A stretch of DNA of 64,000 bases from an uncultured Flavobacteriales bacterium (lineage in GTDB: Bacteria > Bacteroidota > Bacteroidia > Flavobacteriales_G > Salibacteraceae). Both the position numbers and the translations under genes were made by a program. Every line of letters starts with the position of its first letter. The stretch's first letter is position 1. Positions 7,447-30,098 of this stretch are shown here, piece by piece. A model generated the notes under the pieces. It did not search any database, was not told the origin of the DNA, and saw nothing but the letters and a program-made list of their open reading frames with translations. Location of the stretch: NCBI GenBank assembly GCA_943788145.1, contig CALSPD010000007.1:94587-158586 (forward strand). The letters are read 5' to 3'.

Positions 7447-8544
7447 ATGGCGAAACGTTCCAATCCCATCCGACAACTTTTAAGTCCCAGTAAGGTTTTC
7501 ATACCCATAGGCATCGGCTTGGCCATTGTGATTTGGTTTTTATATCGCGATTTCAAGGCGCAAAAGGAGGCGTTTGAACTTTTTTCTTGGGGCTGGCACA
7601 CCACGGGATGGTTGGGTGTAGCGCTTGTCATGGTGGCGCTGCGCGACATCGGTTACATGATTCGCATTCGCATTTTGACAGATAAACACCTGAGTTGGCG
7701 TCAAGCCTTTGACGTCATCATGCTTTGGGAATTTGCTTCGAGTGTGACACCGTCCGTTGTTGGCGGTTCTAGCGTAGCCATTTTCATTGTGAATCGCGAA
7801 AAAATACCCTTGGGCAGAAGCACGGCCGTTGTTATGATCACCGCTTTTCTCGATGAACTCTTTTATGTGCTCATGGTTCCGACATTGTTGCTCATCGTGG
7901 GATGGAATGAGCTTTTTCCGGTTTCTATGGAAAAAGAAATCTTTGGGTTTACGCTTGGTGCTAAGGAAATTTTCATTGTAGGTTATGTGTTTATTGTCAT
8001 CCTCATTTCCGTTATCTATCTGGCCATATTCCGCTATCCCGAAGGCGCGCGTGCCTTTTTGATTCGCCTGTTTACCATCAAATTTTTGCAGCGCTGGAAG
8101 GAAGGCGCAGCAACTACGGGCGATGAACTGGTGGTGACTAGCAAGGAATTGAAAACCAAACCAACATCCTTTTGGGCTAAGGCTTTTATTGCTACGTTCT
8201 TGAGTTGGACAGCTCGATTTTGGGTAGTGAATTTTTTGATTCTCGCCTTCACCACCATCGACTTAAGCATCATCGATCACTTTATGATTTATGCACGCCA
8301 GTTGGCCATGTGGGTCATCTTATTGATATCGCCAACACCTGGTGGCAGTGGCGTGGCTGAAGTGGCTTTTAGTGGTTTTTTGCAGTCCTATATTGCGCCA
8401 GCAGGACTGGCCATAACGATAGGTGTTATATGGCGCATCATCAGTTATTATCCTTATTTGGTTATGGGCGCCATCATTCTTCCACGTTGGATTCAGCGCG
8501 TTTATTTGGGTAGAAAACTGATCCGATTTCGAAAGCCGGATTAA
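7447..8544 (+). CDS. Flippase-like membrane protein (LPG synthase TM region / YbhN family)
   Basis: 365-residue polytopic membrane protein of the lysylphosphatidylglycerol synthase transmembrane family (UPF0104, YbhN/AglD2-like), with about eight hydrophobic segments and the conserved PTPGGSGVAE motif late in the protein. It lacks the soluble aminoacyl-transferase domain of MprF, so it is not a complete LPG synthase. In related systems such proteins move or help move lipids across the membrane, which is inference here. Clear ATG start at 7447, divergent from the ArsC/Spx gene. Confidence 0.85.
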   Translation: MAKRSNPIRQLLSPSKVFIPIGIGLAIVIWFLYRDFKAQKEAFELFSWGWHTTGWLGVALVMVALRDIGYMIRIRILTDKHLSWRQAFDVIMLWEFASSVTPSVVGGSSVAIFIVNREKIPLGRSTAVVMITAFLDELFYVLMVPTLLLIVGWNELFPVSMEKEIFGFTLGAKEIFIVGYVFIVILISVIYLAIFRYPEGARAFLIRLFTIKFLQRWKEGAATTGDELVVTSKELKTKPTSFWAKAFIATFLSWTARFWVVNFLILAFTTIDLSIIDHFMIYARQLAMWVILLISPTPGGSGVAEVAFSGFLQSYIAPAGLAITIGVIWRIISYYPYLVMGAIILPRWIQRVYLGRKLIRFRKPD

Positions 8545-8657
8545 AAACGGAAGGTCATGCATAATATTAAAGATCAACGGATTAAAGTTCAATTAAATAG
8601 TGTTCATCTTTGCAATCTTGTTATCTTGCTTGAAACTTTAAATAATTTGTCATGAAA

Positions 8658-8707
8658 CCTTCAACGCCCTTCAACGCCCTTCAACGCCCTTCAACGCCCT
8701 TCAACGC
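8658..8707 (+). repeat. Five perfect tandem copies of a 10-bp unit (CCTTCAACGC)
   Basis: Five uninterrupted copies lie 6 bp after an ATG at 8652. Ten is not a multiple of three, so gain or loss of a unit changes the reading frame between that ATG and the signal-peptide-encoding frame downstream. With the present five copies the ATG frame ends at TAA (8712-8714). With six copies, or three, it enters the frame of the gene at 8765-9124. Confidence 0.93.
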
Positions 8708-8764
8708 GCGTTAATTCTCTTAATTCTATTTCTCTCGTTTAACTCGCTTCAGTCTCAAACTATT

Positions 8765-9124
8765 ATGGTTGACAACTACCTTGGCTGCGATATTGAGATT
8801 CGGGTTTATAATACTGGGATAGATCCATCCTGCTTAAGTTTTGCATGTGGGCAATGTTGCAACAATAGTATATGTGCAGTGGCAAACACTTTAAGTCAGA
8901 CATTTAGTTTGTGCGGAAGTCCATCCGCTGTAGAAGTCAGGCCATTCGATCCCTGCAGCTCAGGTTCAAATTGCAGTGGCGGAGCCTACAACGGCATCAG
9001 TTATTCGGGCGGCTGTGGTTTCACTACAACCCCATATTCAATTAGTATTACTTGCGGACCATGTGGCTGGCCAACCTTAACCGTTACCTGGTTATCTCCG
9101 ACACATTTGCAAGTGACGCCTTAA
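8765..9124 (+). CDS. Cys-rich secreted protein, start and signal peptide out of frame (phase OFF)
   Basis: The visible frame from ATG 8765 codes 119 residues with 12 cysteines and no recognised domain. The same frame stays open upstream through a typical signal peptide (8708-8764: ALILLILFLSF then SLQSQ) but contains no start codon there, only the 10-bp repeats. The only good ATG (8652) is in another frame. Adding one or removing two repeat units would give a protein starting MKPSTPFNALQR followed by that signal peptide. I infer a phase-variable exported protein currently switched off; the short cytoplasmic form from 8765 is the alternative. No homologue recognised. Confidence 0.7.
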   Translation: MVDNYLGCDIEIRVYNTGIDPSCLSFACGQCCNNSICAVANTLSQTFSLCGSPSAVEVRPFDPCSSGSNCSGGAYNGISYSGGCGFTTTPYSISITCGPCGWPTLTVTWLSPTHLQVTP

Positions 9125-9142
9125 CATAGTGCTACGGGAAAA

Positions 9143-11671
9143 ATGGATATTAAGCCCTATATGCTGTTTTTTTTCCTTGTGGTTACTATGGGTCTCCAAG
9201 CACAATCCCCTGCCGACAATTGGTATTTTGGGGAAAAAGCTGGAGTGAAATTCACCAATGCTCAAGTTTCCTTGTTGTCCGATGGCCAGCAACAGGCCAA
9301 CGAAGGAGTTGCCACGCTTTCCGATAAGCTTGGCAACCTCCTTTTTTATTCCGATGGCGACACGATTTGGAATCGGAATCATGAAGTAATGCCCAATGGA
9401 ACGGGTTTGCTGGGCAGTGCGACATCCACACAGTCCGTTGTCTTTTGCCCCAGTCCCAGCGATTCTTCCCAATACTCTGTTTTTACCGTTGATGACGCTA
9501 ACGGATCGAATGGCTTGAATTATTCCATTATCGACATTGATTTGGAAGGTGGGCTTGGCGACATCATTAGCTCTATGAAGAACTTGGCTATAGACAGTGT
9601 TTCCGTAGAAAAACTGTTGGCCGTGAACCGATGCGATCGGGATGGATATTGGATCATGTGCAGGCCCAAAACAGGGGATAAAATTCATGTTTATGCCTTG
9701 ACCAGTGGGGGTATGGACACTACCCCAATTATCAGCAATAGTTTGATAACGACCAATTCTTCTGGGCACACAGGCTATGCCAAATCAAATGCACTTAACA
9801 CTAGAATAGCTATGTGTTTACCTTATCACAATGTAGTTGAACTGCATAAATTCAACGCGCAAACCGGAGCGTTATTCGATCCCATTCTTATTAAAATACC
9901 GCGAGCCGATGGCAGCGAATTGGGACGGCCCTAAGGCTGCGAATTCTCACCCGACTCTAAACTTCTTTATGTAAGCGGCCTTGATGTTATTTATCAATTT
10001 CAAATTGATGTGCACGATTCCACCTTAATTGCCAATTCAAAATACAAAGTTGCAGATGGACAAATTTTCAACACTAGAAGTATTCAACTTGGCCCTAATG
10101 GCAAAATTTATCAAAATTTTTTTGATCATTTAAATGCCATTCATAATCCAAATGAAATTGGGGCGACTTGCGATTTTGAATTAAATGCTATCGATCTTAA
10201 TGGAGTTGATTCACGCAGCGGACTGCCAAATTTTATAGCCTCTAGCATTATTCCCGTGCTAAAGGATACACAAATGCTTTGTCAATTTGATTCCTTACAT
10301 TTTTCATTTCTCGATAGCTGTGTTTTAAGCGTGAAATGGATTTATAACCATTCAACTACCTCCGACACGCTCGTTGGTCAAACGGTGGATTATCAATTCG
10401 TTGATTCGGGATATTATTTTGTTACAGCAATTTTTCAATTTGGCCAAAAGACAGAAAGCTACCATGGAGTAGTATATGCTACTCCTACTCCAAATACGCA
10501 ATACACAATGGACTCGGCCTATTTGTGTAAGGATGATTCGGTTTTCCTACTAGCGGGGCCTCCTAGTTCCACCTATCAGTGGTCAACCGGCTCTGTTAAT
10601 GAATCGATTATGGTAGGAGACACCGGGTGGTATGTTATCACCGTTTCAAACTCATGCTCCACCTTTGTTGATAGTATAAAGGTTCAAATAATGCCGAAAC
10701 TTATGGTCAACTTGGGTATTGACACCACCGTTTGCCCCGGTGATCAATTCAACATAAGCCCTAAAATTGACGGAATTGAAACTGGTTTCAAATGGTGGGA
10801 CGGGGACAGTACTTCGCTGTTCCGATCGAACATAAACACGTCAGGAACTTCACTCGAAACGCTATGGATAAGCTATGAAAACCAGTGCGAAGTAGTTGCC
10901 GACACGCTTCATATTTCCTATCAACTGCCCCCAAAAATGGATTGGTTCAATGACTCGCTATTATGCCATCGTTTGAGTCCAACTATTACCCTTCCTACAA
11001 GCGATTCGATTACCTATTTCTTAACCTATGCAGGTGAGTCAGGCAAAGACACGTTAAACTACCCATGGTTGATTCAGCAATCTGGATTCTATACGCTTGC
11101 AGCCATTACGGCCTGCGACACGGTTTCGAAGTCAAGCTACCTATCACCGACTCAAATCATAACAACAGCGCTCGCTGTGGACACAAGCTATTGCCTCGGA
11201 CATCGGGAGGTTTTGAATGCGTTTTCGAAGGGATCTACCTATTTGTGGAGTTCTGGATCTACCGACAGCGCCATCGTAGTTGATCAATCGGGGCTTTATG
11301 AAGTCACAGTTACCAACGTTCCTTGTAAAAGGGCCTTTCAAACCAACGTAATATTCTCACCTGATGCTTGCCTTGAAAATCCCTGTCCGTTTACGATTCC
11401 AAATGTGTTTACCCCCAACGCAGACCAAGTCAATGATGTACTTGAAATATCGAATGACTGTTCATCCTTCGCTTTTGATGCGTTTATCTACAATCGTTGG
11501 GGCCAACTTGTTTGGTCTCAGCACAAGAATGCACAGCTCAACGCGCTGAGATGGGACGGATATTCAAACGGAAGCCTCAACAACGAAGGCGTGTATTTTA
11601 TTGTCATCGAATTTGTGGACACACAAGGGAATCACAAAACGCTGCGAACGACCGTAAGCTTGCTACATTAA
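9143..11671 (+). pseudogene. T9SS type B surface protein interrupted by an in-frame stop
   Basis: 842-residue reading frame in one continuous frame with a single internal TAA at 9932-9934. It has a signal peptide (MGLQAQ cleavage), an N-terminal WYFGEKAGVKF-type beta-rich domain common in gliding-associated proteins, repeated WSTGS-type modules around 10580 and 11250, and a C-terminal CHU_C/type B sorting domain (NVFTPNADQVND, then YNRWGQLVW). After the stop the reading resumes as GCEFSPDSKLLYVS, a usual continuation of this family in which Tyr normally precedes Gly-Cys, so TAT/TAC to TAA is the simplest lesion. The downstream half has no signal peptide and would not be exported alone. Confidence 0.85.
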
Positions 11672-11673
11672 CG

Positions 11674-12552
11674 TTAATCGTCACTCCCACAACAGTGCTT
11701 AAACTTTAGTCCACTATCGCATGGACAAGCACTATTCCTTCGAATCTCCTGTCGCTTCTGGTTTAAAGGACGCACTTCCATATCGTGTTTAAACATTTTC
11801 TCCAATGCCTTATACAGCTCAGGATGTTTTGTTGCCAGCAACTTTGGGCGCTCAAAAAAGTATTCGCTCACCACAGGCAAAAACTCTGATTTGTCTGTTG
11901 CGCCATAGGGATTGATGTCAGAATCATCCGCATGAATTTCGTCCATTTTCTGCTCAATCAACTTCAGCCAAGGAAGGGCAAATTCTCGGGAGATGAGCGC
12001 CTCTGGAATGCCGTCTATGGTTCCATCTTCCTTGTCAATCAGATGAACAAACTCATGAATGGCCGTATTTCTCTTGTCTGTATCGTTCGAAAATCCGAGA
12101 CGCAAGGCTTTTTGCGATAGGATCATTTTTCCGTTCATATAACCCGTTCCAACCATACCCAAAATGGCGCGCTCTTTTCCCGAAGTCTCAAATTTTTCAT
12201 TGAAAGTGCCTGGATATATCAACACTTCAAATAAATTGCTGTAGCGCCAATCTGGAAATTGAAAAATTGGAATGATGGCGCTGGCAGCGACCAACACGCG
12301 ATCCACATCATCGATTTTAACGTCAATTCCCGTGACGCGGTGGTTCAATAAAAACTCTTGTATTTCCGTTTCAAAACGCTTTTTTTCCTCAGCCGATAGG
12401 GTGTTATAGAAGCCAACCCTTTCCATCAATATGTTACGGTAGCTTGCGGGAAAGGACGTTTTCGCTTCCTTCCAAGCCGATCGTTTTTTCGACCTGAATA
12501 AGATCCAAAATCCTCCTGCTGCTATCAGAAAAATTACCACTGCCGCCATCAC
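11674..12552 (-). CDS. mtfA: MtfA-like zinc peptidase with C-terminal SEC-C motif
   Basis: 292 residues. An N-terminal transmembrane helix (about 4-20) is followed by the M90 family MtfA domain with the zinc motif HEFVH near residue 165 and a downstream glutamate in the conserved EYF segment. The C-terminus carries a SEC-C zinc-binding motif (CPCDSGLKFKHCC). E. coli MtfA has no such tail or membrane anchor; it is a peptidase that binds the Mlc regulator, and Mlc is not expected here. GTG at 12552 or ATG at 12549, overlapping the upstream nuclease gene by 4 bases (or 1), so the two are translated together. Confidence 0.85.
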   Translation of the reverse strand: MMAAVVIFLIAAGGFWILFRSKKRSAWKEAKTSFPASYRNILMERVGFYNTLSAEEKKRFETEIQEFLLNHRVTGIDVKIDDVDRVLVAASAIIPIFQFPDWRYSNLFEVLIYPGTFNEKFETSGKERAILGMVGTGYMNGKMILSQKALRLGFSNDTDKRNTAIHEFVHLIDKEDGTIDGIPEALISREFALPWLKLIEQKMDEIHADDSDINPYGATDKSEFLPVVSEYFFERPKLLATKHPELYKALEKMFKHDMEVRPLNQKRQEIRRNSACPCDSGLKFKHCCGSDD

Positions 12553-29594: not shown

Positions 29595-30098
29595 ATGAAA
29601 AGATTACTGAATTACATAATTATACTTTCTCTGCCGTTGTTCGTTTTTGGTTGTGACACTATATTGAGTAGTGGGACCAACTATTGATAAGGATTCTGAT
29701 GAGTTTGACTATATCGAAAAAACTAAAAAAGGAATAACCACTACAAAGGAGTCCCTTTTAATGGAAGTGTAACGAGACTTATACTAACGGTCAGTTACGA
29801 GAGAAAACAACCTACAAAGACGGAAAATGAGATGGTCCTTATGAAGCTTACTATGAAAACGGTCAGTTAAGAACGAAAGGAACCTACAAAGACGGAAAAG
29901 AGATGGTGCTTATGAAAGTTACTATGAAAACGGTCAGTTAAAAGGAAAGGAACCTCAAAGACGGAGAACAGAATGGTGCTCTATGACTGCTACTAATGAT
30001 GCAAACGGTCAGTGACGCTGTAATGGAACCTACTATACAACGGAGAAGAGGATGTTACTTATGAATTGTATAATGAGGACGGCACGAGAAGTAATTAG
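29595..30098 (+). pseudogene. Degenerate MORN/YwqK-like lipoprotein gene
   Basis: ATG 29595 opens a lipoprotein signal (LPLFVFGC) that soon hits a stop. The following 400 bases retain, in shifting frames, at least three copies of a YYENGQL...KGTYKDGK...DGAYESYY unit, characteristic of YwqK-type MORN-repeat proteins. Multiple frameshifts and stops make it non-functional. The rest of 29484-30318 shows only a diverged copy of the dispersed repeat near 30130. Confidence 0.8.

Follow-up and report, generated by a model that had tools for sequence, protein, structure and literature searches.

Pure tandem arrays are prone to replication slippage, and the CTCTT repeat of Neisseria opa is an example of SSR translational phase variation in 5' coding regions. 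The locus described here shares with such switches a non-trimeric perfect repeat placed in the first codons, before a signal peptide, and a copy number that sets the reading frame of a secreted protein. It differs from them in that its array is alone in the sampled genome, that its homologues carry no array, and that the host belongs to the Bacteroidota. The heptamers of Haemophilus influenzae hmw1A are likewise tandem repeats with a long unit, placed close to the 5' end of a gene for a surface protein, but the hmw repeats act in the promoter; the present array, being within the coding region, would affect the reading frame instead. The general mechanism of SSR translational phase variation is described in PMC5953494; the repeats it lists for Neisseria are mono- to nonanucleotides, shorter than the 10-bp unit found here. 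Long repeat units need fewer copies to reach high mutability (PMC5953494), so that five units may already vary. A search of the open-licence literature gave no directly relevant precedent for SSR switching in Bacteroidota, this being weak evidence that none exists. The locus also resembles pseudogenes generated by slippage or tandem duplication in lineage-specific families of surface proteins, with which it shares a frame broken by insertion, a broken partner, varied lesions in sister copies and presence/absence variation. It differs from them in that the lesion is a pure tandem array, which can revert more easily than an ordinary indel does.

In the window (the whole stretch of 64,000 nucleotides that was analysed), five identical CCTTCAACGC units come directly after ATG AAA, and GCG TTA ATT CTC begins at 8708 (Table 1). 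TRF returns the same array with a period of 10, 5.0 copies and a 100% match; about 1e-19 perfect runs of this kind are expected by chance in 64 kb. The array has no stop codon in any of the three forward frames and PSTPFNALQR is read in each of them. Since 50 is not a multiple of three, translation from ATG 8652 terminates after 20 codons, so that this ancestral start cannot yield the secreted protein in the sequenced allele. The frame of the signal peptide stays open between 8642 and its stop at 9124, and the part of it that precedes ATG 8765 has no ATG, GTG or TTG. A non-ATG start in this frame was considered and rejected, the codons available after the upstream stop being ATA 8642 and ATT 8645, which are implausible starts. 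The 138-codon open frame that follows the array is reached in 0.07% of mononucleotide shuffles.

Reconstruction of alleles with 0 to 8 units joins ATG 8652 to the signal-peptide frame for 0, 3 and 6 units, while 1, 2, 4, 5, 7 and 8 units leave it out of frame with peptides of 10-36 residues only. The coding region is accordingly interrupted by a perfect tandem repeat with a unit that is not a multiple of three, and the number of units would, on the logic of the sequence alone, toggle between a full-length and a truncated product. The initial annotation had placed a start at 8652 before five perfect units and out of register with a signal-peptide frame lacking a start of its own upstream, and had predicted that 6 or 3 units are in frame and five are not. 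The sequence, TRF and reading of the frames bear out the first two points and our reconstruction agrees with the third, adding a state that had been missed: zero units are likewise in frame, giving MKALILLILFLSFNSLQSQT. The small gene is OFF in this genome through a slippage-prone, potentially reversible frameshift.

Table 1. Features of the locus in coordinates of the window.
Feature	Position	Strand	Remarks
Flippase-like membrane protein (LPG_synthase_TM), left neighbour	7447..8544	+	in 13/13 genus genomes
Whole 3.1 kb module	8545..11673	+	flanked by the flippase-like and 292-residue genes
Start and second codon, ATG AAA	8652..8657	+	true start; homologues in G003, G007, G011 and G004 begin alike
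Product of the present allele, 20-residue MKPSTPFNALQRPSTPFNAR	8652..8714	+	stop TAA 8712-8714
Five perfect 10-bp CCTTCAACGC units, frame-shifting insertion	8658..8707	+	sequence, TRF
Array flanks, TTGTCATGAAA and GCGTTAATTCTC	around 8658..8707		
Signal peptide core ALILLILFLSFNSLQSQ, shifted frame	8708..8758	+	aligns with homologue signal peptides; judged by eye and homology
Small Cys-rich gene body, 138 codons, 12 Cys	8708..9124	+	open frame
Partner, large T9SS type B (CHU_C) secreted protein	9143..11671	+	18 bp downstream of the small gene
In-frame TAA in partner	9932..9934	+	Tyr in sister proteins (RP*GCEFSP vs KPYGAEFSP)
292-residue protein, right neighbour	11674..12552	-	in 3/13 genus genomes

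The body of the small gene is still fully open and keeps its signal peptide and conserved cysteines; the announced total of 12 Cys was confirmed by inspecting the translation. Its product gives zero matches to Pfam or NCBIfam models, and a PDB sequence profile search found a chance match only (E = 0.4). The AlphaFold model of the mature protein has a mean pLDDT of 50, a quality too low to search for similar folds. Two clear relatives were found among 60 related genomes, in G003 and G007 of the same genus, and a profile search added more copies in G003, G011 and G004; the sister records include the Salibacteraceae MAG JAGYJZ010000024.1 and the Flavobacteriales MAG CAJQLE010000001.1. Homologues are present in 5 of 13 genomes of the genus, and outside it matches are weak or few (395 genomes of the class). 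A wider contig search gave no relatives with a single query and just the two MAGs already known with an alignment query; viral contigs yielded zero relatives.

In every sister copy compared the hydrophobic core comes immediately after an initial ATG AAA, as in MKNLIFFIFFFSVSNYLSSQTIYVSN, and the homologues of the Salibacteraceae and Flavobacteriales MAGs start MKN-LIFF...SSQT. The array is absent from the 5' ends of all eight sister copies compared. With the array taken out, the window reads MKALILLILFLSFNSLQSQTIMVDN and can be aligned with the homologue leaders; at the protein level the reconstructed leader MK-ALILLILFLSFNSLQSQT aligns with MKNLIFFIFFFSVSNYLSSQT of a homologue. The homologue leaders thus agree with the reconstructed frame, and no homologue was seen to begin at the position matching 8765 and to lack a signal peptide. 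Since the homologues start at ATG AAA without an array, 8652 is the true start and zero units is the ancestral state. By this comparison the array is an acquisition of the window genome's own lineage, placed after codon 2.

The large gene downstream is found together with the small gene at sister loci. Its carboxyl terminus, in the portion following the in-frame stop, matches CHU_C PF13585 (1.2e-16, 61 bits for a cut-off of 27) and TIGR04131 (2e-11, 43.9 bits for a cut-off of 35), and this sorting domain marks the partner as a T9SS type B sorted protein. It is a member of that class by its carboxyl terminus, while the small Cys-rich protein encoded upstream matches no Pfam or NCBIfam family and is clearly found only in the window's genus. 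A tblastn comparison with the sister partners gives a match over the whole length, with one stop. Among 667 large ORFs sampled in the same genome, in-frame stops after which the frame resumes directly are limited to the partner and one candidate. Such stops are rare in the sample, so that the one in the partner is not typical assembly noise. The candidate (L068:10394-13460; G000:C18:130394-133460) lies on the minus strand, with 776 and 244 codons around its in-frame stop, and is a possible pseudogene.

The right neighbour of the module presumably resembles zinc peptidases (MtfA-like). In sister genome G004 the flippase-like and 292-residue genes are adjacent, with 37 bp between the aligned parts, a spacing which indicates that the module is absent there. 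The module is consequently lineage-specific and shows presence/absence variation with an empty site. G003 has at least three tandem modules. Contig C17 of G003 (L009, 3146 bp) looks like a tandem module of the small gene and its T9SS partner that has been collapsed into a circle, since the partner is cut by one contig end and continues from the opposite one; this suggests more identical tandem copies in G003.

Stops or frameshifts of varied kinds affect four small genes and four partners in ten modules. Copy A of G011 has a TGA in the signal peptide of the small gene and a frameshifted partner, copy B of G011 has a frameshift near codon 40, the small gene of G004 has a TGA, and the partners of G003 copy 2 and of the C35 copy are frameshifted. 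Independent inactivating lesions are therefore found in several members. By our own classification, in draft MAGs whose error rate is unknown, lesions are present in 8/20 module genes against 0/21 neighbouring orthologues of G003, G007 and G011 (Fisher p = 0.0013), and in 6/18 module genes when the window's own pair is left out. A TGA of G004 (L027:6527-6900, G004:C6:62526) lies in frame near a conserved Cys (CTSK*AVTTC) in a Cys-rich gene that is otherwise open, and is most likely a nonsense mutation.

A census of perfect arrays (at least 3 copies, units of 3-40 bp) was carried out over 864 kb in stretches, 30% of the genome. The array is the sole one there with a unit not divisible by three; the other two perfect arrays have 9- and 21-bp units, and the longest homopolymers in the genome sample reach 9-10 bases. 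The array being alone of its kind, the sampled genome has no other sign of SSR contingency loci. No tandem pair of the unit occurs elsewhere in the genome even with three mismatches allowed, and unit pairs in 12 other genomes of the genus match only loosely, with three mismatches. Single CCTTCAACGC 10-mers are scattered in the genome and never in tandem, for which reason we rejected a common origin for the array and other repeats.

We favour the hypothesis, to which we give a probability of about 0.52, that the array is a slippery inactivating lesion under relaxed selection in a decaying two-gene module. A 10-bp sequence would have been inserted or duplicated recently just after codon 2 of the small gene, and replication slippage would then have expanded it to five perfect copies. 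The array would remain slippage-prone and should yield revertants of 3 or 6 units, which would express the protein with a leader of PSTPFNALQR repeats. Relaxed selection is suggested by the homologues without array, the genome sample poor in arrays, the nonsense codon of the partner and the ordinary lesions of the sister copies. The module is dispensable, often duplicated and often broken, which makes the array more likely an inactivating lesion than a switch kept by selection. However, the intact gene body fits a very recent lesion or, just as well, a gene regularly returned to the ON state, and, together with the textbook position of the array, it favours a switch or, failing that, a very recent event.

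The main competing possibility, to which we give less credit, is a true contingency locus in which selection keeps the array as a translational switch, with 0, 3, 6 or 9 units ON and the OFF state having been assembled. The perfect array right after codon 2 and upstream of the signal peptide occupies the classical position of such switches, it is free of stops in every frame ahead of an open gene body, and the module encodes secreted proteins. Five copies also exceed the PhasomeIt screening threshold of 3 for 6-9 bp units (PMC5953494). Against a selected switch stand the homologues without array, the 864 kb of genome without another comparable array, the inactivation of sister genes by ordinary mutations and the nonsense codon of the partner, which slippage cannot revert. 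The phase-variable gene of the initial annotation thus retains its true start, its out-of-frame allele and the restoration of frame by 3 or 6 units; its interpretation as a phase switch is weakened by an array seen in no homologue and nowhere else in the genome sample, by the partner nonsense codon and by sister copies broken in ordinary ways. Given the decay across the family, relaxed selection is at least as likely as a maintained phase switch, and the locus is a candidate contingency locus, not an established one. It is less likely than not, though plausible, that the array is a newborn decanucleotide SSR switch of one species of Bacteroidota, which would toggle the Cys-rich secreted protein and add a variable PSTPFNALQR leader while sister species lose the family by ordinary mutation.

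An error of assembly or consensus, the real unit number being in frame (e.g. 6 or 3) and the gene normally expressed, is improbable. The genome is a draft of 31 contigs, 86.6% complete and apparently metagenome-derived, tandem repeats often carry length errors, and among the sister MAGs the 3146-bp module contig seems to be collapsed and a gap of N lies at a different repeat. Nevertheless, the nonsense codon of the partner lies far from any repeat, directly resuming in-frame interruptions are rare in the genome sample, and a perfect array of 50 bp is shorter than ordinary short reads. Finally, the array is very unlikely to be an RNA structure of the 5' untranslated region, a protein-binding repeat or a separate leader peptide, although the present ATG does encode 20 residues: Rfam gives zero matches, the region folds no more strongly than its shuffles (z = 0.23), the sole in-frame start after the array, ATG 8765, would lose the signal peptide, and the homologues assign ATG 8652 to the main gene.

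If the number of units varies in the population, the locus would record the lineage-specific birth of a phase switch, with the array-less homologues as its ancestral state, and the origin of a contingency locus would be open to direct study. If it does not vary, the locus would be an instructive example of a decaying gene in which slippage damage passes for phase variation when sequence alone is scanned.

Other repeats were noticed in the course of the analysis. Tandem arrays of the heptamer GTGGTTC occur in three sister genomes, at G007:C4:660321-660362, at G003:C32:66544-66585 and also in G003:C33 and G003:C34, and in G011 (L026:11802-11850, G011:C29:35801 on), where the array lies upstream of the same gene family beside a run of N (assembly gap). 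The window's genome has none of these intergenic GTGGTTC arrays of the sister species. Within the window, positions 29786-30013 hold about three 71-bp tandem repeats, which we take by impression to be MORN-like and which probably belong to a gene for a repeat protein.
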